Of a stretch of 64,000 bases of DNA, positions 35,418 to 62,929 are shown piece after piece; the first letter of the stretch is position 1, and each line of letters starts with the position of its first letter. The translations under genes and the position numbers were made by a program. The DNA comes from Terfezia claveryi (lineage: Eukaryota > Ascomycota > Pezizomycetes > Pezizales > Pezizaceae). The stretch lies in contig WHUX01000120.1 in the NCBI GenBank assembly GCA_015179025.1, forward strand, positions 1 to 64,000. The letters are read 5' to 3'. Below the pieces are notes generated by a model, which was given only the letters and a program-made list of their open reading frames with translations, was not told where the DNA came from and searched no databases.

Positions 35418-38094
35418 GTCCAGACACTTTTATTGGTTGGGCGGAGGAACATTTCGAGGAGGGGAAGTTACTAGGGCAGGCTTTTTGGGGCAGGATTCTT
35501 GCGATTTGATTTCATGATACGTTAAGCACCTCTGGAGGATTTTATGTACCTAGGCGTCTTTGGGATATTCCTTACTGTATTGGCTACTATTTGCCGATAT
35601 TGGCATGGACGCAGGCTAGGGCACTGGTCTACATTAATTACAATACAAGGGTTGATGTATTGCTACTTTAGACAATTTTTTCTTCATTTTAAGGGCACAT
35701 GTGAGATTTGAGGATATGCTCGGCCCGGCTGGGTGAGCGAACGTTATTTGCAAGCACCTGACGACCTGAATCTCTACCTGGCACTTGTCAGTGTACATAA
35801 ATTGGATATGTAGTGCAGAGCAAATGCTGTACATAGATCGATAGATCGAAACAAGCAGTATAAGAGCGAAAGGTATATACTGTACTGTACATATTGCTAG
35901 TGAATATGAAACCTCCGGATCTCATTATCAGTTCAAACCTCCCAGTCCGACCTACCGCTGAATCAAATAGCCTAGTAAATTCTACAAAAATACATGGTAC
36001 TTGGATACTATTTAATGCCGAAGCATGTGTTAGATTTCAATATGTAGTCACAAGTCTACTGTGACTGCTTATGGGTGTACTGTCCGGTGTTCGGAAATTG
36101 CAACCGTTGTCTATCTTGGATGAACATCCTTTGTACTGTGGACATAGAAGTGGCGAAATGCCCATTTACGTAAAGTAAATATAGATTTTTGTAGGCAAAG
36201 GCAAACGCAAAGTAGGTACTTACGTCCTCCTGAGCCTCACTGCTGCAGCCAGGGCCTTTTCTGGATACCCGACATTTTGGGACCCTCGATTCATTTAAAA
36301 ACGGCTTAGTTGCCAGTCTTCCCTTTTGGCACTTTTCACAAGAGCTGTACCGCTATGTAGTCTGGTTTCTCCGTAGTATGCACTACCGTAGACGTGCCAA
36401 CCAGACTAGCACTAGACTACTACCGGTAGATTATTCTTGAACTGTACTTCTTGAGTTTTTCCAAAGCTATGCCACAACACGCCCTAGTAACTGCCTGTTG
36501 CCTGGCGCTTGAATTAGATATTATAGCAGAATTTGTTCCATCTTCCTGAGCTCAATAGATATTGTCAAGGACCAATTGCAACCTAATAGGTATTGCCTAT
36601 ATCTGACTGTCGTGCTAGAGGATATTAATTATAAGCTTCATGAAAGCAAACACTTACGGTAATTTGAAACGCTGACAATAGCATCTCACTCTGTCAAAAC
36701 GAGAAAGTTGGATCTGAGCTCTTTCGAGGGCAGATGTTTGAGTCGAATGCCCAGCTATGTGGAGTTTGAAGGCTCAGGGATTCAGCTGTAGGCTGGTAGG
36801 GATTTGGACGTGGGGCTTCCCTAACTATTCAGTATTCTTATATTAGCTACCACGGTCTCGGTGCCAGACCCCATAAATCTGGAATAAGCATGACTAACAT
36901 TTTCATCGTTTTAGGAGTTCGATGAGATCCGGAGTTCGGTAGTTTCGATTCACCCTCCGCTGGGAGAGAAGGGCTGGTGTAAAATATAAAAGCAATAACG
37001 CACCATAATCCCACCAAATCTTGTGCCGTTTACTTTTGGGCATGAAACTTCGGTTGAACACTCCGATCAAAAATTGAGCACACCGATTGTTTCATAATTG
37101 AGTCCAGGATTGACCGGATCTAGGTTACTTTGAAGTCAGCCTATACTCGTAATCTTATTTCTGATTCGAACTGGGCACTATAGTAGAGATATGGGACCAG
37201 CTTAATCTCCTAGGGTACTGGCCCCGATTCTGCGCTGCCTTTTAGGGCGATATATACCTGGGCTATGCACTTCCTGACCTATATGTGGACCTACCAGCCT
37301 ACCAACAAAAATATTAATCTCCAACTGCATGCTTGTTTGCATTGCAACGCAGGACCCAACAAAAATAGCCAAAAGCGCCCAAAGTACAAAAAGTAGCGAA
37401 GACTTCAATTCTTGTGTTCACGGTGGGCTAAAGCTGTCAACATTTTGTGCCATACCGGTACAAGCAAGTTCTACTTTTAGGGTCAGGCCAAGGAACGATA
37501 CCCTCATAGTCCGCGAGCACTCTTCAGATCTTTCCCATATTCGCACCCTGCTGCTATAGATTATACCACCTACCGCATAAGAGATAGATGACCTTCTAGT
37601 ATTAATTGATGTTATATGCAGTCAGTACGGAGTCAACTGAGGTTGAATTTCAAGGAGTATTAACATATTTCTACTTAAATCTAGGCGGACACAGTTCGGG
37701 GCAAATACAGGCCAAATTATTTCGTAAATATTTTTCCGGTAAATGTACAATTCCCCCTTTCTCACACTTGTGAATTCTTGCATATTCAGCCTGAATGCGT
37801 CCTCCAGTTCGAATTCGGGACTGGCAATTCTCAAGGCCCGGACGATAGAATCTTATCCAAGGCCCGATAATTCGAGAGCGTTCATGAACCATTTACTGTT
37901 ATTATGAGCTTACCTAAGCCGTAGCAAAGCTGGGTACAGGAGATACCCCAAATACTTAGTAGGCAGTATTGTATCTTCCCTAGCCTCAACGCTAGCCATG
38001 AGCCCATACCTAAAGCAGGCAATTTTGGGAAAGTATTGTAGTTTCGACGCCGCGTCGACATTGTCTCGGGGTCACTGGCACTCTATTTACGAGT
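35418..38094. other. Intergenic with one micro-insertion pair
   Basis: No gene supported. The signal-peptide-looking frame on minus at 37408-37202 begins with TTG and has an in-frame TGA four codons upstream, so it is not called. Micro-insertions lie at 36358-36414. Confidence 0.4.
36358..36414. repeat. Micro-insertion pair forming an inverted repeat
   Basis: TAGTCTGGTTTCTCCGTAG on the left and CGTAGACGTGCCAACCAGAC (then TA) on the right make a 51-bp inverted structure (36358-36408). The right piece lies between two copies of GCACTA (36380-36385 and 36409-36414), a possible short target duplication. Confidence 0.65.
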
Positions 38095-38425
38095 TTCTTT
38101 ATTCACAGTCTAGTTCATCTCAGTTCAGTTCCACGAGTCTTCATCGTTTGAGTTCATTCTTAGTTTCACAGTTCATTTAGTTCAGTCGGAGGTCGAGGCT
38201 CAGTCAGGCCCCCCGGGTCATCGGTTCATCCGTTAGTGACAGCAAGGGGCCTCGTCGCTCGTCTCAGTATGAGCTGTTTGTGTACTTAGCTAAGCGTGGG
38301 TTTGGCAGATTAACTTGCCTCACCCTTGAATCCACCGGGCTTCTGGGTGGCTCCTCATGGCCCCCCCTAACGGGGCTGCATAGCAGTAACAAGTATTTAA
38401 AAAATAAAAATAAAAAAAGAACTGA
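38095..38425 (+). mobile_element. LINE family A 3' UTR/tail, solo copy
   Basis: The plus strand has CAGTTCAGTT-type repeats. GGCAGATTAACTTGCC, CCTTGAATCCACCGGGCTTC and GGGCTGCATAGCAGTAACAA then lead to an A-rich end (38398-38421). The order matches, reversed, the tail of the 53.4-kb LINE. No ORF2 precedes it. Confidence 0.7.
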
Positions 38426-38462
38426 CGTGCCAAGCTTCATTGTTGAGTTCCGGAGCCAATAA

Positions 38463-38554
38463 TACTAGAAAGTCTGGCTTGCACGGCCCCTCGTTACTAG
38501 AAGGGCAGCTATATTCAAGTTATGTTTTAGCGTGCCAACCAGACTATGTTTTAG
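38463..38554. repeat. Two micro-insertions, each with perfect 8-bp duplications
   Basis: First: TACTAGAA (38463-38470 and 38495-38502) brackets a 24-bp insert starting AGTCTGGCTTGCAC and ending GCCCCTCGT. Second: TGTTTTAG (38523-38530 and 38547-38554) brackets the 16-bp CGTGCCAACCAGACTA, the reverse orientation. Both duplications abut the inserts exactly. Confidence 0.85.
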
Positions 38555-38924
38555 TGTAGATTAGACTTAGAAATTACACATACTCCGGGTTTGACATAAG
38601 GACTGAGTTCAGGGTAACACTTGGCATTCGGTTAAAACTCTTAAAGTTGTTGTGGAGGAAAGCGGTGAGCAAACTTCGCTCGAGTGGGCAACCAAAGTGC
38701 ATCCTCTCTGAAATAAAGGAATGGGGCTTGCTAGTATGTCTACATACAGTATAGTAATACACTGTCCTCACTTCAGTGGACGCTAAACAAGATTGTTTAG
38801 AAAAAGCATTGTACATTGGTTCTAGTGCTCCATTTCATGTCCTGAACCATAACATGAACAGGGTACCGTGATCACCTGATTGGGTGCTTTATTTCTCAGT
38901 CAGCAGAATGTTTTGAGAATGGTT

Positions 38925-39060
38925 CCTTTTTTTCCTTTAACTGGACCCAGCTCTCGTATGTGGCCTAAATAAGTGGGCCATAACAAGCCACCCGGAAACC
39001 CAGGTGGATTCAGGGGTCAGGCAAGTTAATCTGCCCACCCTGTGCTAGCTACTGTATATA
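38925..39060 (-). mobile_element. Solo LINE family A 3' tail
   Basis: The plus strand starts with a T-rich end, then AAGTGGGCCATAACAAGCCA, CCCAGGTGGATTCAGGGG and GTTAATCTGCCCACCC, the same block as at 53.42 kb. No adjacent ORF2. Confidence 0.65.
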
Positions 39061-40129
39061 CTTCATAAAACCTCGGATGTTGAGGATTGGTTGAAATATA
39101 AAGAGGCTTAGAAGAGAAAAGCTTGTTCTGAAAACTGGAAAACGGCTGTTGCCTGCTAAGAAATTGTAATTGACTGGTTAGAATCCCGGATTCCTCGTCG
39201 TATATAATATACTGTATATATTTCTTGAAGTACTACATCTCATAATTACATGGCCTGGCCATATTCACGTCTTATTTTCTACGCAAGAAAACGCTCCCGA
39301 TAATTTATTATATACTCCAGATTTGACCAGATCTGAGGTTAACTATCTCGAAGCGAAAACACTAGGTTAAAAAAGGGCCTCGGAACCACCATCTTGCATT
39401 TCTGGGATATACCGTAGGCAACGATGCATTCCTCTTTTGGGTCGATACTGAGTAAGGCTCAAGGTAGTCTGGTTGGCACAACACCCTCCACAGGGCTCAG
39501 CTTGGGCAACTAGCCTCGGCAGCATACAAAGTTTCGCCTTTCTATCCGAGTACCTGTGGTCCCGTTTGTGCTGCAGCTAATGTTAAGCCTCCGACACTGG
39601 CTCCACGGAAAGTCGACATTGTTCGGCCAAGTTCACCGCGGACACCCCTCGTCAGCACATCCCATTCCATATGTGATAACGTACAGCTCGACATTCGGGC
39701 TCAAGACGAGGCTGGTAATTTCGTAAGATCAAATGTTTGGTGAGGAATATACCAACAGCACCATATAAACCTTGAGTTGATTATTTACTCCCGTCCGCTA
39801 AGCTGGTGCATTTTTCTACACTCGAAAATTACTTTAACCCAGGAACCTTCGGGACCTGGAGGTTGCAAATGCTATATTGGAAAGGTTGTTGCTGTTCACT
39901 CAGCACGTGAGCAACCATGATGATAGGAATTCCCCATTGGTTAGCCACCTGTAACTGCTCCTCTAATGTTAGTGTACATACTGGTATAATGTAGGACAAT
40001 TATCCTGGAATAGTGCCCTCCGTAAATATCTGCATGATTACAATTACCTCGAGGATTGAGGGTGCTAATTATTTGAATTGAGTTTGAGCTTGACATGAAG
40101 CTCCTAAAGTCAAAGTTTATAGACCTAGA
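39061..40129. other. Intergenic; micro-insertion at 39465-39491
   Basis: TAGTCTGGTTGGCACAAC begins at 39465, flanked by the imperfect repeats AGGCTCAAGG and AGGGCTCAGC. No gene recognised. Confidence 0.45.
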
Positions 40130-40210
40130 TAGTCTGGTTGCACTACCAAACCAGACTAGCCCTCCAGCCCTCTACCGAGGGATTGTGCCAACCAGACTAC
40201 CTCCAGCTGC
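40130..40210. repeat. Two adjacent micro-insertions
   Basis: At 40130-40158 a palindromic TAGTCTGGTTGCAC...AACCAGACTA. At 40172-40199 a reverse-orientation 28-bp copy (CTACCGAGGG...CCAACCAGACTA) bracketed by CCTCCAGC at 40161 and at 40200, which extends imperfectly to 11 bp. Confidence 0.8.
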
Positions 40211-40852
40211 TCTGGAGATATTTCGGAAACTGAAAAGTGGGGGAAATACGCTATTCCCCATAAAATTTAGCGCCATTTTTTCTTTTTTGGACATGGATTC
40301 TATTCCACAGCCTTAGTCTATTATATACTCTTCCCTTAAATCTAATTTTTTGTAAGGGCTAATCCGGAAAACCTGATTTTAAACATTTTTCGCACGATGG
40401 CCACTATTGGTGTGATTCCGGTGGATCGCGAAGACGGTTCTGTAGATTACCGTAAGTGTTATATACATAGGTACCAGAATGGATAGTCTGGTTGGCAAAA
40501 CCTCTCGTAGAGACAGATGGACACCCAAACTACCAACGAGACTAGAGCGGCACTTCCTAGGAACCCTCTACCGACGGGTTGTGCCAACGAGGTTTCCAGC
40601 CTTCTCTGTTCAGCATTGCGAACTCAATCTATTCACCCCCTGAGACCCAATCAGTGATACTCCAAACGAAATCCAGGTGACCTATCCTCCGAGCAAGAAC
40701 AATAAGCCAGAAACTGGCCTTCCGGGCTCACTCTATATAGCTTCAACAGCTACCGAGGAATCACTGCATTTTCATTTCAAGCTGAACCTACAGGCAATGT
40801 CAAAATGAGCTAAAGCGTGGGAAAAAAAGCATTGAGGCTCAATGAAATTCAA
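40211..40852. other. Intergenic with a diverged micro-insertion pair
   Basis: TAGTCTGGTTGGCAAAACC begins at 40484 and a reverse partner (CCCTCTACCGACGGGTTGTG) ends near 40590. The flanks of the first (CCAGAATGGA and ACAGATGGAC) are only loosely alike. No gene. Confidence 0.5.
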
Positions 40853-40890
40853 TGTATGTTCCTACGTGCCAACCAGACTATGTATGTTCC
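40853..40890. repeat. Micro-insertion with perfect 10-bp duplication
   Basis: TGTATGTTCC at 40853-40862 and 40881-40890 brackets exactly the 18-bp TACGTGCCAACCAGACTA. One of the cleanest examples. Confidence 0.9.
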
Positions 40891-41235
40891 GTGTAGGCAC
40901 TGACGTTTTAGGTCCAGTCGGATCCTCCTCCTGCTAACCTCGGCATGTATGCCAAGAATTCGTTCTGTAGCTTTTACCCCTGCGCTAGTTTCGTTCCACA
41001 TATATGAAGTATATACCGGTATTTTCTCTTCATATAAAATATATTGGCTTCAAGCATATTTCACCCGGTCCCAAGCGCATGCCTGTAATGAGCAGTCTCT
41101 GTATGAAGAGGGCTTCCCTAGCTAAAATATGTACTTTCAAACTGCATTAGATCGATGCATCCACCATCTCCAGCTCATCTAGCATACTGGTCTTACATCG
41201 CCTTAGGAAGCGTAGCTTTGACACTCTAGTCCTGA

Positions 41236-41485
41236 AGTTTTTTTTATTTTTAATTCAATAGTCTATACCCATGATTGACCTGAAATCCCAAAGCTTCCCC
41301 TTTAAAGGATTGACCAATGCTTTCGGTACAACCAACCTCCCGAGCCAAGAAAAAGACATAAAGAGCACACCAAAATAATTACATCCATACAAACCTCCAC
41401 CGCCTGACCATCCCCTTAATTGAGGTTGAGGTTAGTAAAGAAATTCTCAACCAGATCCACTGTGTAGTTCTGAGGTCCTTATCTA
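41236..41485 (-). mobile_element. LINE family B 3' tail
   Basis: After a T-run on plus, AGTCTATACC, GACCTGAAATCCC, CTTTAAAGG, AAAGACATAA, ATAATTACATCC and TTGAGGTTGAGGTTAGTAAA follow in the same order as at 22.77-22.97 kb. The coding part is almost entirely lost. Confidence 0.75.
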
Positions 41486-41559
41486 TATTATCAATTGGAT
41501 TCAACTATGTATGGTAATATTCCAGTCTAGACTTCATTATATAAACTCTCTCTAGTTCT

Positions 41560-41616
41560 GGATAGCATAGTCTGGTTGGCACAAGCCCCTCGTAGTGCCA
41601 ACCAGCTAGGATAGCA
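41560..41616. repeat. Micro-insertion, two-sided copy with perfect 8-bp duplication
   Basis: GGATAGCA at 41560-41567 and 41609-41616 brackets a 41-bp insert. The insert starts TAGTCTGGTTGGCACAAGC, continues CCCTCGTAG, and ends TGCCAACCAGCTA. It contains a full forward unit plus a reverse half, so it can fold back on itself. Confidence 0.9.
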
Positions 41617-43230
41617 CGTTTGTTTGTCTGCCGAATTAGGAAGTCGTCCCTTCCCCGACGTGGAAGTCTAGCTATTCTGAATTAACTGGTTCTAAGTACT
41701 GCATATCATAATTAAACACTGTAGATGCATCTTACAAATGTAAAGGTGCCGAGACTACTTAGGAGGGACATCGCTCTCAACAAAGTTATGCCTCTCTTTA
41801 CGTTTCCCTCTACAGAGTGGTCGATCATGAGCTCATATATACGAAGGCTATGTATTTTATCATGCCAAAAGGTTGCCCTGTTTTACAGGCAACCTCATGA
41901 AAAGTAGTACAGGTCTAAGATTCCAGATGATAAATGCTGAGCTAAAAAAATATCATGAACTGTAAGTCTCTTTGTATTTCAAAACACAAAATACTTCCTT
42001 TGTAGCCCGTTTTGTCCATCATTATACAGATGTTGTGGTGCCAGACATATTTTGCAAGGACACTCATTCATGTCTATCTGAAGTATTCCATAAGTATCAG
42101 TTTCCCTGGTAATCACACTACGAATAGAATAGTAATTCTATATACTATACTTATTTTAGAGTGTTATCTATGGCTTTTATTTACGTCATGACGAATATGT
42201 TGGATCGTTCACAGATATTGCCCATTGAATCTCCATCCTCTGAAAGCCTGACTGTGCCCGATGCACAATGGAAGGTGAAAGAAGCATTATATATTGCCAG
42301 ATCTTCGTTCTGATGAAATATATGTACTATTTACGGTGTGGGTTTGTTTACTCGGAGCTCCCTAAACTCTCCCTTCCGTGAGTATTCCCTGACACCCGAC
42401 TTTGCTAACTAGCCGAAAGCAGTGATTCGCTTGCTTCGAAAGTCTCAAAGGTTAAGCTGCAAAGTCACGCTCTTAGAGGAAGAAATAAGAGAGTCGGTCC
42501 CCAAAGTCATGTCCGTGAGGAGAGCATACTACTAATAGCAGGAAGATTTCTCTGCAGCAAATCGTTAGGGAGATACAGTGCTGTGTAAGCTACCGTCCCG
42601 AGAGTCGTAAGAAATAAAGTGAGGCTGGGAGCAGACTCCTGCTAGTAGAGTACCACGTATTCCGTAGTTAATTCTCCCATGCATATATACCTAAGTTGCA
42701 CCTTGCTATATTGGACGTATCCGACCCCGCAATCCAGTTCACCTCACGACCCAATTAAGCCAATTTTGCTGTGTGTGGGTTATCCCATTTTATCCTAACA
42801 ACATTTCTGAAGGAGAAAATACTCGAGAGAGAGTGCCCTGAAATTCATTGAAAGTGGGAAAATACTAATGTCTAGGATATGGTCTACTCATATGCCATTA
42901 TTTGAGGCACAGTTATCTATAATTTTATTCTTCTAGTTTCTCCATCATCACAGATGCAACTAGTTAATGAACCATACCAACAGTTGCAGATGGCATTTCT
43001 CAGCTCAAGAATTTCTCAGCTTGGGCATTTCTCCACTCAATGATGCAACAGTTTTCTAGTCCCAGCCTCTTTTCCTTGTATACAGCGCCAAATTCACGTT
43101 TCCGACTTAGTTGAGATTTGCCTGGGAAGGCTTAAAACACTATCAGGCTACGAAGTTCCAAAAGCATCTTCCTGGCTTTTGGCCTTCAAGCTTACCTAGG
43201 TATATTTATATGTAGTTATTTATTAAAATC
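41617..43230. other. Intergenic, no gene recognised
   Basis: AT-rich. CCTTGCTATATTGGAC at about 42702 resembles the terminal sequence of the pogo-like remnant at 44.10 kb and may be another decayed end. Nothing else is seen. Confidence 0.4.
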
Positions 43231-43443
43231 AGGTGGGAAACTAAAATACCATCTGAGGCCGTCCGTAATAATATTAGCAAGGGTTCAGCTGAAGCCCGTA
43301 GCATATTCAACTTGCTAAATTATTGCGGTCTTGTGGCTAATCTCGGCTTATTAAGTAGACTCAAGTTATTGGATGCGGAGCAATTTGAAATACCAGTACC
43401 GTACGCGAGAGATCACCTACAAATACTTCGGGCAGAATTGTAG
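43231..43443 (+). pseudogene. Coding-like fragment (possible terminal exon), unknown family
   Basis: The plus-strand open frame has no ATG but ends in TAG at 43441-43443. Pieces include IPSEAVRNNISKGSAEARSI, FNLLNYCGLVANLGLLSRL, and DAEQFEIPVPYARDHLQILR. A plausible acceptor (AAAATCAG) lies at its head. The sequence looks like real protein, but no upstream exon was found. Relic or last exon; function unknown. Confidence 0.4.
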
Positions 43444-44093
43444 AGGCTGAGGCACTTCTCATTACCAACTGCATCAGAATATAAACTTTATCCCCTGCCA
43501 CGGTAGGTAAGCACCTACTGTACATATGTATTTAATGTATACATGCAATCAGCTATTATGTATTATGAAGTATTGGTATCATAAGTTCTGTGTCCAACTT
43601 CCCCACAGTGTTCATCCGATTCTAAGGAATGATAAGGGCATTCGTACCAACAGCATACCTAATTTCGCCAACACCAGTACTTTACCCAATAATGTCACCG
43701 AAAAGTATGCCCGTGAAGCTTCTACAGATCTGATAACAATGGAGGTATTTCCGATGATATGGCTGCCCGTGTGCGTAGTAGTTAGGTATGTTATATACCA
43801 CCATGTCCATCATAGCAAGAAACACATTGAGGAAATGACTTTGCATATAGGGTGAAAGGATCAGCAAAAACCGGCTAAAGGACAGTATTGACCATTTCCA
43901 GGCGACTGCTAAATTCAGTGATATTATCCTGATAGTACAGAGTACCACATATGGTGGTCTAGGATACACTAGCGGGCCTGGCATCATGTTAAATAGAGCT
44001 CGATGATGTTCCTGGGAGATTATCGGACGAACATCCAGGAATATGACCTATACGTTCTATCATATCCGGTGTGCCCGTCCCGAACAGCTGAAA

Positions 44094-44410: not shown

Positions 44411-44420
44411 TCCGATATAT

Positions 44421-45219: not shown

Positions 45220-45315
45220 GATAAAATCTCGAATAAGAGTCAACGGTTGGGTAACAACACTAAAGTTCTATCTTTATGCTTAGAACGGCCCGCACGCTAT
45301 TTTCTGTATAAGAGC

Positions 45316-45485: not shown

Positions 45486-46992
45486 TAGACGAATGTCAGC
45501 AGGGGGCGGGACGGGAGAAATTGTTGAAGCCGGGTCAGGTTGTGTTAGAGTCCTAGAAATGCCGGAAGATACCATGAAAGACTCTAGTATCGGCATCTAT
45601 TTGCGTGCTTTTCAAAATATATCAGTGTTCAAAAGCGTGACAATTTACTAGGCACAAGATAAATTTACAATTTGTTACATAGCGCTGCATAGCGCATCAA
45701 CCTAAGAAAATGAACGGAGGAGGGCATCCACAGGCACCGACTCGATACTCCTTGACCAATCACAACGCAAATTTAGAAAGATAATTGCCGTCAGTCACAG
45801 TCACTTGTTTATGATCTAGTCAAATGAAAACATTCCTAGACTGCCATACTAATTGTTCACTCAAGGTAGCATTCTTGATGATTGCCAACAAAATACACCA
45901 CTAATAACGATCAACTTGTGCTAACGGGGTGCAATGAAGAAGCAACTCCATGACCAGTCTCGATGGCGAGCAAGAGTCCTTGATATGACCAGTGGAACAA
46001 GCACGCCAGAAACCAAAGGCAAAACCTTAGTCTATATGGAATCGATGCTAACTATATCACCTATCAAATCTCGCAGGATTATTTTAACCTTGCAAAATGA
46101 GACTACAGTCCGGCTAATAAAATTGCGGTGTTTTAGCCTGTCATGGCATACCCTTAATCTTCTAACGCCCTTTCCTTCTCTGGAAATTGTTTGCACCCTT
46201 ATGCTTTAGTCTAGTTGCCCCAAGCCGCTCGTAGAGCCTTGCTTATGCTTGACTTTGATATCCCAAGATTTTGCAGTACCTAGACCCTCCAATGGCGCGT
46301 GGTTAACTCAGTTGATAATGAATCAGCGTACCTACGTCAGAGCTCAACCTGTGAGGTACAATCATATACCCTTGCAGAGGATTAATAAGAATTGCATTGA
46401 TCGCCTATTGGTAGAGCTATACAAACATCTCCATTAGTCCTCCCTGCCCCCTTGCAAGTTTCTGTGCCACCTGGACTCGAGAATCTTTTTTCTGCTGACC
46501 TGGAATCTGGGGAATTACCCTTGTTATCATAATTCGGGGTTAAATGTCCTCTTATCTTATCTGGAGTATAGCTTGAAAAACAATATTCCGAGACCCTACC
46601 ATGCCTAAGACCATGCCTGAGTACGAGACAATCCTAAGTTTTGGTTGTGGGGTCCACACTTTCCGTCAAATGCTGAATGATAGACATATACCGTAGATCC
46701 AGACCTTATTAAAATATTCCCTTCGAGAATTGCATAAGCAACTATGCCTCTGCAACTAGTGTGAAGTTTTGGCCTAATAATCAAAGATGCCCTCGCAGAT
46801 GTTTCTGCTGCTCTTCATGTTTCTCCATACCACAATCGCGCTAGTCATCAAATTGCATTGAGGTAGATCTGTTGATCTGTTTGACCAACCCGCGTTCAAA
46901 GCGCACGGCAAGTGATTCAGGTTTCAAAATATGACGAAAAAGTCCCAACCAGCACAAAAACCAATTTTTTCCTAAACAGGTATGAAAGGAAA
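45486..46992. other. Intergenic; one ORF of unknown value at 45934-46209
   Basis: The frame at 45934-46209 starts with ATG and encodes 91 residues of no recognised family. It ends beside the micro-insertion at 46207. Nothing else stands out. Confidence 0.35.
46198..46250. repeat. Micro-insertion with perfect 9-bp duplication
   Basis: CTTATGCTT at 46198-46206 and 46242-46250 brackets exactly a 35-bp insert starting TAGTCTAGTTGCCCCAAGC and containing GCTCGTAGAG. Confidence 0.9.
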
Positions 46993-49741: not shown

Positions 49742-49785
49742 GAATATAGTCTGGCTTGTACTAGCCCCTCGGTACCCGGAATATA
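49742..49785. repeat. Micro-insertion with 7-bp duplication
   Basis: GAATATA at 49742-49748 and 49779-49785 flanks TAGTCTGGCTTGTACTAGCC followed by CCTCGGTA. The first bases of the insert overlap the duplication. Confidence 0.65.
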
Positions 49786-50154: not shown

Positions 50155-50187
50155 CTTAGATATTGTGCGAGCCAGACTACTTAGATA
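50155..50187. repeat. Micro-insertion with perfect 8-bp duplication
   Basis: CTTAGATA at 50155-50162 and 50180-50187 brackets exactly TTGTGCGAGCCAGACTA (17 bp, reverse orientation). Confidence 0.88.
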
Positions 50188-50766: not shown

Positions 50767-50801
50767 GGGCATGAGTGGTCTGATCGAGACTAGGGCACGA
50801 G
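50767..50801. repeat. Micro-insertion (sister form) with 9-bp duplication
   Basis: GGGCATGAG (50767-50775) and GGGCACGAG (50793-50801), differing at one base, bracket TGGTCTGATCGAGACTA (17 bp). Confidence 0.75.
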
Positions 50802-52129: not shown

Positions 52130-52239
52130 TCAATTTGAGCTTCGAACTATAGTATCTAGAATCAGGTTGAGCAGGATCTTGAGAGTTGTAGAGGGTTAAA
52201 TCTTGGAAGATGTGAAGAGTTTAATTATCCTGGATATTT

Positions 52240-52840
52240 GCTTGAACATCTGGAAGCCGATGGGGAATCAGAATATATGTAAATAGCTGAAGAAATACTC
52301 ACATCATGGTAAAGTCGATTGTAGGAAAGCAATGAGCCCAAATGATAAAAGGTAAAGTAGATTATAGGAAAGCAAGATAAAAAATAGCTGATAGTATGAT
52401 GGAAGGGCGAGAAGCTGACTGAGTTGGAGGAAGAGAAGGAGAAGGAGGGCAAAAAGGTGGTAGGGTATCTTGACTGAGGGTAGGGTATGGTGGTGGTGTT
52501 GGTAGCTGATTTCCTAATTAGGTATCTCCTTATTAGGATACTAATAGTCTCGGATACTGAGCCATCTTGGCGGCGGGTTGGGAGGTTATGTTGAAAATTA
52601 CAGATGCAAAATACGAGAACAGCTGGCAATCTGTAGTCTCAGGCCAAAGACCAGTGAAGCATCAATATAAACAACTTTAAATAAGCTCTGCCCAAGCCAA
52701 TTTTGTATGGGAAAATAAGAATTAATTTGTAATAGGAGACTCTGGGCTCCATGGTTTATTACAAGGGTGAAGGAATTATGGAGGTCATGTATCTTCACTA
52801 CTGCCTCGAGGCAGATCTCTCCAATATGCCTGACTAGCGA
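52240..52840 (+). repeat. Dispersed 0.55-0.6-kb repeat F, copy 1
   Basis: Shares long ordered blocks with 58430-58970 on the same strand: AGCAATGAGCCCAAATG, GTAGCTGATTTCCTAATT, GATGCAAAATACGAGAACAG, AGCATCAATATAAACAAC, GGTCATGTATCTTCACTAC and CAGATCTC.CCAATATG. Minus-strand frames here are low-complexity Ser/Tyr/Phe and not convincing. No transposon ends or LTR signals were identified. Confidence 0.75.
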
Positions 52841-53361
52841 TGCCATCGGGTTTCATTTTCTACAAATTCTGCCTCCCCCTCCCTCCCTTCCCTCCTTGCC
52901 CGCCACCCCCTACCCAACTCCTTATGGATCTGTGTAACGGGGCTGTGGCTATGAGCTCGTTCCAGGGAGCGCTTGGGCTATGAACTATGGACTATGGTAT
53001 AGAGAGACTATGGTATAGAGAGATTCTATGACAAGGAGGAACGTAATGTATTCAGCACGGCTAAGATACAGGACTTCTTTTTTATTTTTATTTTTTTTTT
53101 TAAAAAAAATCCTTATTTGTATTTTTATTATATACATGGGTGTCATGCAGCCTTTCGGCTATGGCCTATAAACGCTTGAAAACAGACAAACAAAACAAAA
53201 CACCAGAGGTAATAAGAGGTGGTGTCAGGGGACGCAAATCACGAACTACATGGGGGGGTTGCACCGGTTTTTTCGGACCGGGGCGGGGCGGGGGGCTTTT
53301 AGTCGGAGGTTAGGCCGGCTTCGATTGTTTTTCGAAGACCGATGCCATTATTTTTTTTTTT
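52841..53361. other. Intergenic: low-complexity and G-rich stretches
   Basis: Pyrimidine tract at 52870-52915. T/A homopolymer block at 53080-53130. G-rich stretch (GGGGCGGGGCGGGGGG) near 53280. T-run at 53350-53362 that forms the poly-A end of the adjoining minus-strand LINE. Confidence 0.5.
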
Positions 53362-54360: not shown

Positions 54361-54367
54361 CTCGTCG

Positions 54368-55034
54368 TTAGACGAGCTCGGTGAAATTGAGTGAGTGGGG
54401 GGACCGGTCCGGGCACTCGATTATCATGTGAGGACGGTTGGCATTGGGGGCGTTGCACCAGGGGCAGTTTCCTGTGTGTCGACCGATCCTTTGGAGGTAT
54501 TGTGGGAACCAGCCATGTCCGAGTCGAACGGTGCTGACCCAGTGTGATAACCGGCGGGGGAGGTATCCTTTGGCGCCTGTGTTGCCAGGGTTTCGGGGGG
54601 GGTGGGTAGGTGTGCGGGGGTTTACTCGGTTGTCAAAGTCTTTGAGCGTGAACTCATTGATGAACACTTTGATACCGGCTTTTGGTTGGTTTGGAGGGGG
54701 CGGAGGGATCCTCAATGAGTGGGAGGATGTGGTTGAGTACTCCGTCGAGCTGCAGATATGCCAGTCGTGGGAGGCCGACGTTGGTCGTCCAGGCGGGGGC
54801 ATAGTTTTGATAATTCTTGGGAGCCCTGGAGTTGTATTTCCTCGGACGGTTCCAAGGTAGTAGGGTGTAGAGGGGGTGGTCAGGGGTAATCCCAGTCAGG
54901 CGGGCTGCACAGGAGATTGCGCATATTTTAATGAGTGTATCTGGGGCGGGGAGGCCTGTTTCCACGCAGATTGCGCGAATTTCAGACTTCTGCCAACCAC
55001 CAGTCACCAACTTTGCGGCAGCACGAATGCACAT
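54368..55034 (-). pseudogene. LINE ORF2 connection region and zinc knuckle
   Basis: Frame 55034-54654 (MCIRAAAKLVTGGWQKSEIR; LIKICAISCAARLTGITPDH) is typical of the region after the RT thumb. Frame 54802-54368 follows with LGHGWFPQYLQRIG and CPWCNAPNANRPHMIIEC, a full C-x2-C-x8-H-x4-C knuckle, and stops 20 codons later. The frameshift between them shows decay. Confidence 0.7.
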
Positions 55035-55204
55035 CCTGAGGGGACGATTTCTTCATTCTTGATGTGTGCTCTAGTATAGATTTCTATACCGAAGGTGAGT
55101 GCGGAGATGACAGTGGCTTTGATTAGTCGAGATACCATCTAGGGTTTGAGTCTCTTGAGGAGCGGAGCCAGTCGGTAGAAGATTTTCTGGGCTTTCGCAC
55201 TCCT

Positions 55205-55854
55205 TCACTCGATGTGGAGTTTGGGTCTTAGGGGTGATTGGAAGAAAACACCGATCCAGCGTTGTTCTCTGTTATTAATGATAGTATGAGGGCCGATTTG
55301 AACAGTCGGTGCCTCGAGAGGGGGGAGTTGCTTCTTGCAGGGAAAGTGGAAGAGTTCGGTCTTTGAGATATCGAAAAGCATTCCACCTAGGTTGGCTTCG
55401 GACTGCATTTCGTTACCTGCGTTGGAGAGGAGGAGGGCATTGGCAGCCCAAGATGCCGATATGGGAGGAGGCAGAAATCGTCGACATAGGAGACTTTAAG
55501 GTCCACTATGTGGCGTGCATCAAATTTGAACAGCTACGAGCTGTAAACGTTGAAGAGAAACGGAGAGAGAGGGGATCCTTGTGGGATGCCAACGCTGACC
55601 GGTGCAAAAGAATGTTCGCAGGCTGCACCATCGGTGATTTTGACAGACCTGCCAGAGAGGCATGATTGAATCCAGTCAACCAAATAAGGGTGGAAGCCAC
55701 ACTCGATCATGATTTCGGCAAGCTGGCCATGGAGAACTTTGTCGAAAGCCCCCATGACATCAAGAAAGAGTGCGGTTGAGAAAAGACCTTGCTGGGAGGC
55801 CTTGGTCACTTTTTCCAGCAGTAGGTGCACTGCATTGAGCGGGGAGCGGGGCAC
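55205..55854 (-). pseudogene. LINE reverse transcriptase fragment
   Basis: Frame 55854-55534 has motif A (ALFLDVMGAFDKV) and motif B (VGIPQGSPLSPFLFNVY). The catalytic motif C (SYVDDFCLLPY; YVDD at 55489-55478) is in another frame after a break. A thumb-like piece follows at 55408-55205 (KTELFHFPCKK). RT N-terminal motifs are missing. Inactive. Confidence 0.85.
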
Positions 55855-55860
55855 GGGGCT

Positions 55861-56218
55861 TCACCTCCTTCTTTTTGAAGACGCGAACTGAGCCAGCGCG
55901 GGAGACGGGGGAGGGGGAGGATGGGGCGTCTTGGATCCTGCCGGTTTGGAGGTGGACTGCCACGCCGGTGGGGTGGCCGGCTGGCGTGGGAGCGGGGAGG
56001 ATGGTAGAGCGTGCGGAGCGGGCACGAGGGGTATGAATGGCGGAGGTGTCTGCCACTTCAGCAGCAGACTCATCCATCTCGGAGTCCCAGCCACCAGACT
56101 GGGAGAGTGCAGTACCGTGCTCAAAGAGCGCGGCTGCGTGGTGAGTGGGAGGGGGGAGGTCTGCAGACCAGCCGGGCTGGGGCACAGGAGGGGCACGGGG
56201 GGGGGGGGTGTTAGACAT
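55861..56218 (-). pseudogene. LINE ORF1-like N-terminal segment
   Basis: ATG at 56218. Pro/Ala/Ser-rich with an acidic stretch (GGWDSEMDESAAEVAD), the disordered lead typical of fungal LINE ORF1 (RNA-binding Gag-like) proteins. The expected C-terminal knuckles are missing because of the deletion at about 55860. The assignment rests mainly on position. Confidence 0.5.
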
Positions 56219-56260
56219 GGCGATGGGGGGGGAAGGCGAACGTTTTTACGCGTCGGCACT

Positions 56261-57106
56261 ACACACGTGTGTGGGGACGAGGACGGGGAAACACACGAGA
56301 ACGCGAGCGGAGAAAGTAAATAAAGCGAACGCTTTTAAATTGAAAAAAGAATTGCGGTACGCAATCGCGGGGGGACACTTGATACCTTTCTCGGTCGAAA
56401 GGATACAAGACGTTCCGTGAGGAGAGAATACAAGAGTGTAGCATCGGGGATCCTTTATAGAGGTCCCCTCCAGACTCCAAAACTTAAGCGTCCATACTTC
56501 CAACATCCCTGAGCGCTCATATCTCCCACATCCCTAAGCGCTCATATCTCCAACATCCCTAGGCGCTCATACTTCCAACATCCCTAAGCGCTTGTGACAT
56601 ATATATTGAGCCTATACTTGGTGAGCCGTGACAATCTGGAGGTGGGTCAGGACCTCGAGGTGGAGGCCTCCTCTTAAAGGCCAGGCCTTCCTTAGTGAGG
56701 ACGAGGGTGAAGGTGGTGCCACTATGGTACAAACTTTGTATGGAAGTGAGTAGATTACGTGAATTATGAGTGAGTAACTCACCTCTATGCTCACATCGTG
56801 GGTGACAATGTGAACGTCCTAGTGAGTCATTTCTCAATGGTGAGTAAAAGTGTGCACCAATGGGTGAAGGATGGTGAAGTAGTTGAACTACTCACCCTCA
56901 TGATTCACTCCCTTACTTACCATGGCACCCATATAAAGTGAGCTTCCTGGTCACTCACTGGAGGTTAGTGTAGTTCGCTCACTTCTTATTCCTCTATGAC
57001 TCACCTCATTCCACTCACTTACTATATGCGATGCTTCTTTATTCACTAGTTCATTCACTATATTATGCCTCTATATTTATTTAATTACATGTTTACTACA
57101 TCTACA
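56261..57106. repeat. 25-bp tandem repeat (56488-56595) and GTGAGT-rich stretch
   Basis: Four units of (A)GCGCTCATACTTCCAACATC plus CCTA lie just beyond the LINE ORF1 head and may be its 5' UTR. From 56700 to 57000, GTGAGT/ACTCAC hexamers recur densely on both strands. Confidence 0.65.
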
Positions 57107-57345
57107 CATTTGGTATGACTCTTAGATTTCCCGCAACATGGTCCATAATAGTTTTTAGAGTCGGACAGCTTTTGGTATGACTCTCAGATTGCCCGCAACA
57201 TGGCTTATGACAGTTTTTAGAGTCAGACAGCTTTTGTAATAACTCTCAGATTGCCCGTGACATGGCTCATAACAGTTTTGAGAGTCGGATAGCTTTTGGT
57301 ATAACTGTTAAATTGCCTGCAACATGGCCTATAATAGTAGGAGTG
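57107..57345 (+). repeat. 62-bp tandem repeat, about 3.7 copies
   Basis: Each unit carries TTTTGGTATGACTCTCAGAT, GCCCGCAACATGGC and AGTTTTTAGAGTC. GACTCT near the front and AGAGTC near the end make every unit a short inverted repeat. Units are 80-90% alike. Confidence 0.8.
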
Positions 57346-58429
57346 AATATTAGATGCTCGAAAGATATCTTATATAAATTATTTATATACTTCAGTATGA
57401 TAGTTGATTAGCCCCGACCCAATAGTTAATTACACCTATAGTCTGGTTGGACAATACCCCCACCATTACATCTAGATCTTCATGTTTTCCCAATTGAGTA
57501 ATTTTATTGCCTAGCTTAGCCTACTCTCGTTATCTATTATTCTCGTCGGGAAGTCTATATTGTTAGTCTTAATGATCGGTCTTGGCATCTCGAGCCTTGT
57601 TGTATATATACTTCCCTTCCTCGCACTTTTTCTTCTGTTCTTTCTCTACAGTTTACCCTCTTGCCTTATCAATTCTATAATATTTCAATCAGACTAAATA
57701 CTTCTACACTTATTGGCTCCTATATGAGTATTAGTATACGCAATAATATGAAGTAATATATATGCAATAATTTGAAGTAAGATATGTATAGAATGATATA
57801 AAGTAATATATATGCAATTAATAAATGTAAAATAAGATGTATGTACAACGATATAACTCGGAAGCAATATATATATAATGTGTGATGATGTGAAGTAAGA
57901 TGTGTGCGTACAATATAGTTTATGTTTAAAAGAGGTTTATGCATAATAATATTCTAGTTAGTCATATCTACATTTACAGGAAAAGTATGTAATAGTGATT
58001 CACTTATGGCTCCACTAATATACTTACTTTAGCCTTCAATTGTATACACTATATATGAAAATCTTTTCACATGGTATGAGTTTTCAGTGAGTAATGCCCA
58101 TACAAAACATGTACTGCATGTGAGCCAGAATAATCATATGCTTACTCACTATAGAATTCACTATTTGATATACCTTATAGGTCACCTTTTTATCCCCTAT
58201 ACCATTCACATGTTGTACATATATTGAGGTGAATATTGAGGTAAGTATTTTCCTTACTTACTTTTTTTGTACTATAGTGGTACAAAATAGACTATTAGGA
58301 GGACAGAATTGATAGATATCAAAATAATAAGAATAGTTATTTTATCTCTATTTCATAAGTGTTAGCTAATCTTACTAACTAGCTCTTGGAGACATCAAGC
58401 TTCAAAAAATAAGTTTTGAATATCTAGTA
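57346..58429. other. AT-rich intergenic with degenerate ~35-bp repeats
   Basis: At 57725-57910, GCAATA, TGAAGTAA and ATATATATG recur irregularly. No gene. A micro-insertion lies at 57429-57474. Confidence 0.5.
57429..57474. repeat. Micro-insertion with 10-bp duplication
   Basis: ATTACACCTA (57429-57438) and ATTACATCTA (57465-57474) differ at one base. They bracket exactly a 26-bp insert starting TAGTCTGGTTGGACAAT and ending CCCCCACC. Confidence 0.85.
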
Positions 58430-58970
58430 GCCAATAGGGGAAAGCCAGAATATAGATGAGATAAAGAAACACTTACATCTTGAAAGTGATGCTTGTGTAA
58501 ATTATAAAAGCAATGAGCCCAAATGCTAATAGAGATAGCAGTATGGTGCAAGAGTGAGAAGCCGACTAAGTTGGAGGAGAATAAGGAAGAGAAAAAGAAG
58601 AAGATGGAGAAAAAGGTGGTGATTGTGAAGTATCCTGACTGAGAGCAGGGTATGGTAGTAGTGTTTGTAGCTGATTTCCTAATTCAGTATCTCCTCTATT
58701 AGGATACTGAGCCATTTTGGAGAGATGCAAAATACGAGAACAGCTATGCAATATGTAGTCTTAGCTAGAGACCAGATCTCCATAGTGAAAGCATCAATAT
58801 AAACAACCTTAATTAAGCTCTACCCAAAGCAAATCTTGTACGAGAAAATAAGAATTGAATCTGTAATAGGAAAACTCTCTGGGACTTGGTCTATTACTAT
58901 TACAAGCATGGAGGGGATCATGGAAGGTCATGTATCTTCACTACCACTACCTTGGGGCAGATCTCCCCAA
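58430..58970 (+). repeat. Dispersed repeat F, copy 2
   Basis: Same block order as 52240-52840, with some blocks shortened (for example the segment after GATACTGAGCCATTTTGG). It lies 6.2 kb downstream in the same orientation. No coding function seen. Confidence 0.75.
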
Positions 58971-60625
58971 TATGTTTCTTTATTATAGGCAACCTAATTA
59001 GTGGATGCTATTTATACCATACAGCAAAACGCCATACTCATATGTTTATTACAACATATATTAGGGTGTTAAAATAATATGCTTTCTTATATGCTCTATT
59101 GATCTGTTGAGCTTATATGCTTTTACATGAGCTTATTTCAGTTATTACTATCATTACTTATGTTGTATTATTCTTACTACTTTTGATCGAGCCTTTCGCT
59201 CCAGCAGCTAGCTAAACTGCTCGAAGTACAGTCTGTTTTATAGTATCATCAATCAGTATTAATCATTTAGTATCACTATCTGGCACAACTGTTGTAAGTC
59301 CAAGCATAGTTAGTAATAGTACTTAAATAGGCAAGTGCGTGGGTTGCCAGCGATACTATAGTCTGGATCGAGATCGAGTCTAAGCTTATAGGTAAAGTCA
59401 AGGTCATAGTCATAGTTCAGAAGGGTCCATAACACAGGTATAGCAGAGCAAACCTCTTAAGAATGAAGTATATAAGAAGAGATATTTGAAAAGAATGGAT
59501 CTAAAAACCATAATACTAGAGGCAATTCATAACAAGAAGAGTAATATAGGTAAAAAACTAAAAAAAGGGATACGAATAGAGATGGAATTGGGGCAATAAC
59601 TAGAAGGCAAATAAGTAAAATAATAAGCAATCTGTAACAAGATATACAATCCATAACAAGATGGGCAAGCAATCCATAATAAAATAAGCAATCTATAATA
59701 AGGCAGGGGAATGTATAACAAGATGAAGAATCTGTAATAAAGAGTATAAATTTATAATAAGAAAGGCATAAAAAGTACAAATCTATAACAAGATACCAAT
59801 CAAACTAGTGACAAGAAGTTGATTTAGAGATGAAATGTAGGCAACAACAAAAAATCTGTAGCCTTGGCATATGCATCACAATAAATGAGGTTAGTAAGGA
59901 ATCTTGGCAAGTAATTTATAGATTACTGATCGAGGTAAGTCGATAGCTAAACGAGTTATTAAGATAGGAAACTCGGACTAACTCGCTCCATAGTGTATAC
60001 TAAGTATATCTCTTCATACAAGTATCTCTCTATATAAGTATTTTCTCCATATAAGTATGTTCTTTTATTTGAGTATCTTTTTATATAAGTACTTCTCTTT
60101 ATATAAGTATATATAAGTAAGTATTCCAGTATAAACTTTCTAGTACAAATATCTCTATAAGCTTGTTTAAGTATTCTTTTTATATTCATATTCCTCTATA
60201 CAAGTATTCTTTTATATAAGTATCTCTTATTATTTCTATTATTTTGTTCTATCTAATACTTTAAGCTTTTAAGTTAAAAGAACTAAAAATATAAAGGTAC
60301 TTGTTATTCTAATTAAGAAAACATATACTATATAACTAGGTATTAAGAACTATAGTATGCAAAGTAAAGTCCATAATAATTGGAAAAAGGAGAGCTCTAT
60401 ATATTAGGAAAACTCAATTATATACACAAAAACTAAAGTGAAAGTGTATTCCTTTATTTCTACTTTCAAAATCCTATATCCCTCTTCTAAGGGCGAGTTG
60501 CTCAAAATCCTATATTCCTCTTAAAAAGAAGAGTTGTTCCTGCTCCAAAACCCTATATCGCTCTTGAAAAGAAAAGTTTCTCCAAAATCCTATATCGCTA
60601 TGTTAAAGGGAGAGTTTCTCCTATA
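58971..60625. repeat. AT-rich minisatellite zone
   Basis: Three degenerate arrays: 59520-59770 (CAATCCATAACAAGAT-type, about 20-27 bp), 59995-60235 (ATATAAGTAT plus CTCTTT, about 20 bp) and 60460-60625 (AATCCTATATC.CTCTT..AA.AGAGTT, about 45 bp, four units). No gene. Confidence 0.65.
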
Positions 60626-61413
60626 TTGTTGCATATGCAGAAGTACGCTTTTGGTCCGTACTTCCCACACACTGTTGGTAACATGACGTACCTACGAGGG
60701 TCTGATCGAGACTATTCAATAACATGCTCTCAGTCACTAAACAAACGAGCTTTAGTGAGCCAAGCGGATTATTGTCGGGAACCCCATCTACTGATGGTGC
60801 ATATGCAGCCGCATGCTCTCCAGTAAGATATAGTGCATGGGGGAAAAAAAAAAAAGAGGATGAGGCTCCGCAAAAAAAGGTAGTCATGGCATGGAACTCA
60901 AGGACAAAGAGTACATTGGTCTCTCAATGCCACCAAAACAAACCCGTCACATAGTAAACCCAAGAAAACCCCAAGGATCATTTTTTATGTATGAAAAGTA
61001 TAACGCCATCCGTAACCTAAAAAAGTAGCCTAGCTTCGCCAAAACAGACGGCATAGAACACAAAATGAAAAAATTTGTAATGCAATAAAACCACCACTCC
61101 AACTAGTAGTAACGTGGAGTCTATTAGATCGCATCCTCATGGAAATCATAATAGTCGTCTAAATTTGATAATCATGGTCCGCAACTTCCGGCACTTCACA
61201 CTCCAAATGAATGACGTGACATAAAGTGGAACTGCCTTCCTCAACACTCATATCGCCATCAACAACACATTTCATCAATATCAATATCCATGTAATGCTC
61301 AAGAGACTTCAGACCTTCCTCAGAAGATATGCATGGCCACTTGCTCGCGGTGAGATCACTCTGTCGATGGTGCTTGGCGAGCCAGTAAGAAGAGGGGCAT
61401 CTTTCCATGACTC
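60626..61413. other. Intergenic; sister-form micro-insertion near 60688-60711
   Basis: CTACGAGGG plus TCTGATCGAGACTA, identical to the insert at 7527-7549, occurs here without an obvious duplication. The remainder is the 3' flank of the phosphatase-like gene, with nothing recognised. Confidence 0.45.
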
Positions 61414-62604
61414 CTAGTTCAGAATCATTCCATCCTCTGCATCAGCGCCAGGCAGGCCAGTATCGGAGCCGTCATCCCTGAACGGGGCAGTTCCGAATCG
61501 GCCATCAACAGCAATTCCCTCCTGGCTATATTGCTCCCTATCATCCTCATACTGTGACTCTTCAAATCCCCGTTTCTTCTTACCCGCTCCCCCACTTTCT
61601 CCTCTCTCATCCTTAGCCGTATAGAGCTGATACTGCATCTGCTGATTCCTTGCCTTCTGAACCTCCCGATAACTCTTAAAAATGGGTTCCCACGCGGCCA
61701 GGGCATACTTGTGAATATCATCAAATGCCACACTAAATCTCCGTCCTTGCACCACCTGGCAAGCTTGTACGAGACTAGCCTCATAGTGATGCATAATATA
61801 ACTCGCCACCACTACCGCCGATTTCTCATTCCCGGTTTCGCAGAATACAAGGGTCGATCCCGGGCATGGAATATCCAGTGGATAGGGATTAAGTGCCTCT
61901 TGTAACACCGGCAGCACACATACTGGAGGTTGGTAAGGGAATTGCGAGCAGTGCTCTAAAACTGCAGAGTGGTAGTCGGGGTAATCTGCGGAGGCGTCGA
62001 AGTGTTTTAGGTATTCTGGGATTAGGGTCGAAAGGTAATTCCGATCAATCAACTGCGCCGCTGCCCGGAATGTCGCAATGAGAGGCGCACCATGAACCGC
62101 CGGTAGATCGAGTGTCACACGAACAGGTTCTCCAATTTTCCCAAACCGATGTTTTAAGAGCGACTCGTCTGTACTAGGTTCCACGCTCCCGCCCATGAGC
62201 TTCGCTTTTGCAGTCATACTACTTCTCACAGCAATTAACAGTGTAATTCGCCGCTGCGATAATAATTCTTTATTCCTTGTGGCTGTCATTGAGCCCAGCC
62301 ACACCCACGGTAACACCTGCTGTGCTTGTCTCCTGTTTTCGTAGGTCCATTCTTGCAGAGCAGAAGTGGTGCCAAGAAGGGATTCTAGACCGGGGGTAGT
62401 GTTATCCAAACAGCCTAAGCGTCCGATAGGAGGGCCAGAACCTGGGGCGAGGCTGGGAGGGATTAAGATGCGAGGTGGTCCGGGGATGCCGCTGGTGTAG
62501 CTGTGCTGAGGGGCGGGGTAGAGGGGCCCAGGGGAGGGAGTGCGCTTAATGCTGTCGGAAGCAAGGGAGGAGATAGCGAGGGAGCAGGTTGATGGCAAAG
62601 ACAT
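61414..62604 (-). CDS. Dual-specificity-phosphatase-fold protein, probably a pseudophosphatase
   Basis: Single exon of 396 residues, ATG 62604 to TAG 61416-61414. The N-terminus (1-85) is Pro/Ser-rich. The DSP fold begins with QVLPWVWLGSMTATRNKELL (about 96-115), matching the I-x-P-x-L-[YF]-L-G opening, and RRITLLIAV. The P-loop reads VFCETGNEKSAVVVASYIMH (253-272). The nucleophile Cys255 is kept, but the preceding His is Phe and the phosphate-binding Arg of C-x5-R is Lys261. ACQVVQGRRFSVAFDD follows as in DSPs. The C-tail is charged, with a KKKR cluster. DSPs dephosphorylate Tyr/Ser/Thr. Loss of the Arg usually abolishes activity, so a binding (STYX-like) role is inferred. Similar fungal proteins exist; whether the Lys is typical of them I cannot tell. 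Confidence 0.85.
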   Translation of the reverse strand: MSLPSTCSLAISSLASDSIKRTPSPGPLYPAPQHSYTSGIPGPPRILIPPSLAPGSGPPIGRLGCLDNTTPGLESLLGTTSALQEWTYENRRQAQQVLPWVWLGSMTATRNKELLSQRRITLLIAVRSSMTAKAKLMGGSVEPSTDESLLKHRFGKIGEPVRVTLDLPAVHGAPLIATFRAAAQLIDRNYLSTLIPEYLKHFDASADYPDYHSAVLEHCSQFPYQPPVCVLPVLQEALNPYPLDIPCPGSTLVFCETGNEKSAVVVASYIMHHYEASLVQACQVVQGRRFSVAFDDIHKYALAAWEPIFKSYREVQKARNQQMQYQLYTAKDERGESGGAGKKKRGFEESQYEDDREQYSQEGIAVDGRFGTAPFRDDGSDTGLPGADAEDGMILN

Positions 62605-62769
62605 GGTAGGCGAGCGTGAGTGGGTGGTTTAGCGGGAGAAGAGTGAACTCTGGGTTGATAAGTACGTAGCAACAGCTTATCTAAGTCAGTACAAGAGGTT
62701 AACTATAATTAGTTAGTATTTTTATTTACTTTCTTTTTTTATATTCATTCACCGTATTCTCAACATACC

Positions 62770-62880
62770 GGTCCCCATAGTAAATAAGCATATTTTAGAT
62801 ACTTCTTACGGAGTAGAATATTCTTATTTTTTTTGCTTAGTCACCATACATATGCTTGTATCTAGAAAAGCACTAAACCA
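62770..62880. repeat. MITE-like element, family 'TTACAAGCATAT', truncated copy
   Basis: CATAGTAAATAAGCATATTT, AGAATATTCTTATTTT and GCTTAGTCACCATACATATG follow the order of the 1.1-kb copy read in reverse. The outer end of one side is missing. Confidence 0.65.
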
Positions 62881-62881
62881 T

Positions 62882-62929
62882 AAGGTCGATACTAGTCTGG
62901 TTGCACTACCCCTCGCAGAAGGTAGATGC
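62882..62929. repeat. Micro-insertion with 11-bp duplication
   Basis: AAGGTCGATAC (62882-62892) and AAGGTAGATGC (62919-62929) match at 9 of 11 positions and bracket exactly a 26-bp insert. The insert starts TAGTCTGGTTGCACTACC and ends CCTCGCAG. Confidence 0.82.

Follow-up and report, generated by a model that had tools for sequence, protein, structure and literature searches.

Very short inserts with 9-bp target-site duplications in Terfezia claveryi as possible repair scars of a terminal-inverted-repeat transposon

The genome of the ascomycete Terfezia claveryi (assembly of 72.56 Mb in 794 contigs) carries very short inserts that begin with TAGTCT and are found between direct repeats of essentially 9 bp. 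The window analyzed here comprises bases 1-64,000 of contig C25, and the pattern was followed into other contigs and across the assembly. The inserts entered previously empty target sites and duplicated 9 bp of them. Their outer end, TAGTCT, is fixed, and in the main sub-family the inner end falls at discrete points, either 15 bp or at least 25 bp into the element. Where both ends remain, the joins between them are variable. We see about an even chance that each insert is the repair scar of a DDE-type terminal-inverted-repeat (TIR) transposon, which attacks its target with a 9-bp stagger. The scars would stem from donor sites or abortive integration, and we read the parent as a low-copy or lost TIR transposon. 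A Mutator-like transposase is our best guess for the family.

The 15-base element end TAGTCTGGTTGGCAC was used as the genome-wide query and has 2,885 exact matches (1,432 + 1,453), compared to none for the reversed control. An earlier note on the window had counted about 20 copies of the motif, and the same number was recovered with up to three mismatches (20 matches against 1.51 expected, with 0 of 100 shuffles reaching 20). The note had also proposed an assembly-wide search with scoring of the flanks. The flanks of 106 distinct exact copies from contigs C1, C2 and C25 were scored, with a few two-ended inserts counted twice. Perfect 9-bp direct repeats surround the insert in 35 of the 106 copies (1.5 expected from offset controls). 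In a further 20 the 9-bp repeat is interrupted by a single mismatch (4.0 expected), giving 55 in total against 5.5 expected. Among TAGTCT starts on both strands of the window, 13 of 52 have a 9-bp repeat with at most one mismatch, compared to 4 of 260 control offsets. The 8-11 bp initially given for the duplication narrows to essentially 9 bp. The maximal exact repeat is 9 bp at 50 of 382 TAGTCT starts (0.7 expected), 8 bp at 17, 10 bp at 12, 11-12 bp at 4 and 20 bp at 1. Sixteen inserts are exactly 15 bp long and flanked by a repeat of at least 8 bp, which measures 9 bp in 12 of them, 8 bp in 4 and more in none. Perfect repeats number 69 for 385 TAGTCT starts versus 0-7 for 171-226 starts of six-letter control words of the same composition, and part of the control matches is probably due to tandem repeats. 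TAGTC is also the commonest start of short inserts between 9-10-bp repeats in the sampled sequence (34), and the runner-up GTGCC (10) is the TAGTC piece on the opposite strand. The target shows a weak and near-symmetric bias, with T rare at position 1 (10%) and A rare at position 9 (13%; n=62), as is typical of a DDE enzyme. The 264-kb sample was chosen partly for holding exact copies, hence its density of 14 perfect sites, which scales to ~3,800 genome-wide, is only indicative.

The nine inserts listed in the earlier note are all present. Exact direct repeats of at least 8 bp flank seven of them, one (40172) only with its border moved to 40170, and are interrupted by mismatches at the sites 57439 and 62893. 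The pattern is not confined to positions 36358-62929 and recurs for example at 7528-7549. The inserts of the window are as follows.

38471..38494, plus strand: 24-bp insert starting AGTCTGGCTTGCAC, with flanks TACTAGAA at 38463-38470 and 38495-38502.
38531..38546, minus strand: one-ended 15-16-bp insert with TAGTCTGGTTGGCAC on the minus strand, flanks TGTTTTAG; 9-bp repeat with one mismatch.
40170..40199, minus strand: 30-bp insert TAGTCTGGTTGGCACAATCCCTCGGTAGAG, 9-bp repeat AGCTGGAGG/GGCTGGAGG.
40862..40880, minus strand: 19-bp insert TAGTCTGGTTGGCACGTAG, perfect 9-bp repeat GAACATACA; an 18-bp reading of the insert gives a 10-bp repeat.
41568..41608, plus strand: two-ended 41-bp insert TAGTCTGGTTGGCACAAGCCCCTCGTAGTGCCAACCAGCTA, flanks GGATAGCA.
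46207..46241, plus strand: 35-bp insert, perfect 9-bp repeat CTTATGCTT.
49747..49774, plus strand: 28-bp insert TAGTCTGGCTTGTACTAGCCCCTCGGTA, an addition to the earlier list; 9-bp repeat with one mismatch.
50163..50179, minus strand: 16-17-bp insert TAGTCTGGCTCGCACA(A), flanks CTTAGATA.
50776..50792, plus strand: two-ended 17-bp insert TGGTCTGATCGAGACTA, flanks GGGCATGAG/GGGCACGAG.
52545..52551, plus strand: 7-bp insert TAGTCTC, flanks GGATACTAA/GGATACTGA; the paralogue at ~58.7 kb is empty, and the paralogue L030 has other inserts at the corresponding place, displaced by 1 bp.
53004..53010, minus strand: doubtful 7-bp insert TAGTCTC, equally readable as a 16-bp tandem duplication; perfect 9-bp repeat TCTATACCA.
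57439..57465, plus strand: 27-bp insert, flanks TTACACCTA/TTACATCTA with one mismatch in 9; paralogues on C17 and C223 have a similar-sized insertion.
62893..62920, plus strand: 26-28-bp insert TAGTCTGGTTGCACTACCCCTCGCAG(AA), flanks GGTCGATAC/GGTAGATGC; 9-bp repeat with two mismatches.
7528..7549, minus strand: 22-bp insert TAGTCTCGATCAGACCCTCGTA of a different sub-family, flanks CCCTAATCC/GCCTAATCC.
39465..39494, plus strand: exact 15-mer followed by AACACCCTCCACAGG; no duplication found, and no second place found for the downstream DNA.
36358..36408, minus strand: exact 15-mer in a two-ended 51-bp copy with the other end AAACCAGACTA; no duplication found.

Paralogous sites without the insert, together with the repeat statistics, back the initial proposal of insertion with target-site duplication. 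At L007, TAGTCTGGTTGGCAC lies between two copies of AACATCTAG, and the paralogue L096 on the same contig (C1:129455-129502) has a single AACATCCAG and no insert. By match spans, none of the other 13 places listed for the sequence has the 11-bp insert TAGTCTCGTGC of L073; four alignments lacking it were read. A 31-bp insert of L030 is missing from both window paralogues. The target was thus empty beforehand at three sites. The 34-bp insert of L002 is likewise lacking in a paralogue, though one that lies within repetitive DNA. At a second L030 site, the ~58.7 kb paralogue is empty, the 52545 paralogue holds the 7-bp TAGTCTC, and L030 holds a 12-bp insert that was itself hit by a 15-bp insert carrying its own 9-bp duplication. 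Similar-sized insertions in the paralogues of L053 (C342) and of window site 57439 (C17 and C223) indicate insertions that are shared. A library or assembly artefact would be a trivial source of such a pattern, as Tn5 tagmentation likewise yields 9-bp duplications. The existence of several diverged sub-families and the insertions common to paralogues at the same place make this hardly credible. Tn5 itself was rejected, as no Tn5 mosaic end occurs in the sampled sequence, and a 13-base Illumina adapter has 7 loose matches there, about the chance number by our estimate.

Following the invariant TAGTCT, the inserts divide into sub-families continuing as GGTTGGCAC, GGTTGCACTAC, GGCTTGCACTAG, CGATCAGA, CGTGCCCAGA or CATGCCAAGA, usually with CCCTC next and then a small hairpin, for example CTC-GTA-GAG. 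Many inserts are 7 to 50 bases long. The 55 main sub-family copies with a repeat (0-1 mismatch) measure 14-15 bp in 21 cases, 16-24 bp in 1 and at least 25 bp in 33. A 31-bp form, TAGTCTGGTTGGCACAAGCCTCTCGTAGAGA, has 78 exact genome copies, and the next base is G in 35 of them, which exceeds a random next base and implies that some copies run on. The form ends exactly at the 9-bp duplication in L037, L045, L095 and L064, the last with four extra bases preceding TAG, and as a one-base variant in L059. Short forms of other sub-families are 11-12 bp (CGATC, CGTGC) or 9-10 bp (CATG), with long forms of 21-32 bp. A constant end with two truncation points next to a hairpin could also be expected of a small structured RNA that was reverse-transcribed, truncated at the hairpin and inserted by the endonuclease of a retro-element. 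Such an origin is very improbable given the essentially fixed 9-bp duplication, the inverted two-ended copies and the lack of any Rfam match in the window, where Rfam and tRNA scans both returned nothing.

Most repeat-flanked copies (about 49 of 55 in our reading) are one-ended or nested. Genome-wide, 45 copies have both 15-bp ends, separated by 1-30 bases. They are a minority, so the two inverted terminal repeats that define miniature inverted-repeat transposable elements (MITEs) are generally lacking. In 121 genome matches (58 + 63), another end, CAGACTA or longer, lies within 18 bases. Joins were typed in the first 100 of these, leaving 94 after six mirror rows were dropped, and 84 of the 94 are distinct, with broad arm lengths and a second arm of 7-15 nt. 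Junctions show overlap in 24, an exact join in 20, 1-3 filler bases in 19 and more filler in 31, the filler class resting on a list of sub-family prefixes that we supplied. They look like products of end joining. Identical two-ended inserts at C90:3743 and C103:97130, each 415 bases from a hAT match, lie in one duplicated segment, so identical joins can also arise by segmental duplication. A 32-bp insert at L042 (~217-248), GAGACTGGCCGGCACCGGACTCTCGGTAGAGA with GCAAGATGA on each side, has the outer end GAGACTGG rather than TAGTCTGG and perhaps represents another sub-family. Very small palindromic MITEs of ~50 bp might have inserted whole and later lost one arm through hairpin cleavage or replication slippage. 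The 45 two-ended copies, 32-60 bp long with both 15-bp ends intact and in several cases near-perfect palindromes, are what this history would leave. We consider it unlikely, as arm loss must then have halted precisely at the duplication wherever a locus is one-ended, both-ended copies are few (90 of the 2,885 ends) and most of the two-ended joins examined are asymmetric and distinct.

A repair scar could form in a few steps. An element would land and, on excision or failed integration, its transposase would cut the 3' end exactly at the border of element and target and the 5' strand ~15 nt inside the element end. The donor would keep 3' tails of TAGTCTGGTTGGCAC to either side of the target copies. 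Target-15 bp-target would result where end joining fills one tail and trims the other, and two-ended joins where it trims both partly. The longer class would retain more of the end, up to the small hairpin. The fixed outer border, the fixed 9-bp duplication, the 15-bp residue and the exact far border are together what a staggered donor cut would produce after such repair. Abortive integration would give the identical product, because gap filling at the new site would copy those 15 nt too. As cut-and-paste transposition is conservative, thousands of scars could come from a small number of elements, with the long form rare or lost. The earlier suggestion that the inserts are collapsed remains of a TIR element is the better-fitting one, with inserts as truncated end prefixes and two-ended copies as variable joins.

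Several observations weigh against repair scars, the weak points being the absent parent, end points that depend on the sub-family, the sharp 31-bp end point and copies without duplication. A long element with these ends, encoding a transposase, had been envisaged, and limited searches found none. Within the sampled sequence, the 106 copies share no downstream DNA in register, save for a 47-bp match between clusters L063 and L049. A genome-wide search with 37 of the 46 duplication-less copies (2,960-base query in 37 pieces; 40 of 151 candidates scored) returned mostly the copies themselves or other short copies, and with this share of candidates scored, diverged or rare parents could be missed. 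Exceptions were one copy adjoining a ~170-bp MITE and L005 with a weak partial match of 48 bases. Long and scar forms were never observed at the same locus. The short end points at 15, 11-12 and 9-10 bp speak against a fixed stagger across sub-families, and the 31-bp end point of sub-family B at five loci is sharper than random trimming predicts. No recognizable duplication exists at 46 of the 106 exact copies, a large share that needs flank loss or another cause; five more have a duplication only at an offset, as do 10 of 153 offset controls. Two insertions 1 bp apart, instead of two scars of one insertion, may account for the inserts of 7 bp and 12 bp at a paralogous site of L030. Excision of the Mutator-like element (MULE) Muta1 in yeast, finally, is described as normally precise where duplications are present (excerpts of PMC5225508).

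The missing parent and the recurrence of exact pieces are better accounted for if the pieces inserted directly. A transposase would load cleaved, body-less ends of 15 nt or ~31 nt and insert them in a form of in vivo tagmentation, the two sides then being joined, with the 15-bp piece as the moving unit. The 106 sampled copies have no common interior, and the identical 15-bp piece, as well as the 31-bp piece at five loci, recurs with different duplications. Sites are also clustered. Of the 32 sites called in the 264 kb, 7 have another copy no more than 36 bp away, two of these overlapping, and by perfect repeats alone 3 of 14 sites do; among random positions the share is 2.5%. Several inserts are nested within older ones (L030, L049, L063). 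At L022 (~8880-8935), L045 (293-376) and L081 (~256-334), one 9-mer occurs in three copies with two different inserts between them, which is repeated insertion at one target, exactly or 1 bp apart. A one-ended piece alone leaves the exact duplication border on the other side unexplained, where staggered donor cuts do better, and we know of no enzyme that inserts body-less ends in cells. Direct insertion is a possibility that we rate well below repair scars, and we hold the same tentative view of a natural in-cell tagmentation with pre-cut ends of 15 bp (and ~31 bp) that favours sites beside earlier insertions. As limited searches turned up no long parent that carries these ends, the inserts may still be the new class of minimal mobile element first suggested. 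Such pieces would, to our knowledge, be smaller than any DNA unit known to insert with target-site duplication.

Known systems match the inserts in part. hAT and P element duplications are 8 bp long, unlike the 9 bp found here, and at least 150 hAT matches in the genome do not change this. Introners are insertions with target-site duplications and resemble the inserts in this, though many inserts here span only 7-34 bp. MITEs share the non-coding nature, the high copy number, the duplication and, in some cases, the inverted ends, whereas the inserts are far shorter, mostly one-ended and, where two-ended, mostly distinct from each other. The P element is cut on one strand 17 nt inside its 31-bp terminal repeat, leaving long 3' extensions (excerpts of PMC7776569), and this internal cut resembles the 15-bp residue. 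Excision footprints of TIR transposons such as Muta1 and Stowaway/mariner also consist of terminal residues between duplications with variable joins (PMC5225508; PMC4561436). Residual ends flanked by duplications (55 of 106), previously empty sites and joins distinct from locus to locus all agree with such footprints. The preferred residue sizes (15; at least 25), the thousands of ends and the failure to find a long element set the inserts apart. Muta1 excision can on occasion leave TIR residues of at most 13 bp, seen, unlike here, at donors without duplications (PMC5225508). The 9-bp duplication fits the 8-10 bp given for MULEs in the same excerpts. In the 264 kb, a 9-bp sequence is duplicated exactly in tandem, with no bases in between, five times (8 bp, 2; 10 bp, 0; 11 bp, 0; 12 bp, 3), which is at most suggestive of footprint-free excision. 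No description of such inserts was found in literature titles and abstract openings, and an account of the T. claveryi mating-type locus reports no transposable element there (PMC13152902).

Transposase domains are present in the genome, with 21 matches for MULE alongside those for hAT, and none was linked to TAGTCT ends. A search for the P-type catalytic domain gave 0 genome matches, its control being silent as well. Of the two superfamilies initially named, Mutator-like is a better match than hAT, given the 9-bp duplication and the 9-10 bp duplicated by a MULE in the same genome. This putative MULE at L085 (G000:C61, ~103-2738 of the locus) is ~2.6 kb long and has 105-bp inverted repeats, 99% identical and beginning CGGACTGACTC, and a duplication TTGTTGAGG; the ends of L086 are similar. 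Their start differs from the TAGTCT of the inserts, and no short duplication-flanked inserts starting with the MULE end CGGACTGAC stood out in the sampled sequence. An inverted pair of sub-family B at C712:117185+ and C712:120420- (3.2 kb) was rejected as parent, the plus end being a 31-bp insert with its own duplication GGGGACGGT. A further plus copy lies at C712:113049, 7.4 kb from C712:120420-, and the 53 copies of sub-family A form no inverted pair within 20 kb.

If the inserts are scars, they constitute a dense, countable record of cut-and-paste events in a fungus at base resolution, in which thousands of natural sites reveal both the target preference and the outcome of repair. They would also suggest that the transposase cuts its donor with an unusually long stagger and perhaps does not belong to the P superfamily. 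Direct insertions would instead push the size limit of mobile DNA downward. Under either reading the load of such inserts may be overlooked, as repeat annotation does not normally report anything so short.

Additional repeats and genes were recorded along the way. A ~170-bp MITE at L018 (~8773-8955) has inverted ends starting TACCGTATTTTCTGGTT and occupies six genome places including its own. The window encodes an amino-acid permease 96% identical to one of Terfezia boudieri. At positions 63655-63892 of the window, a 48-bp unit is repeated in tandem about four times, and every copy contains an inverted repeat TCTTAAGCTGGC...GATTTAAGAC; L002 holds related sequence.

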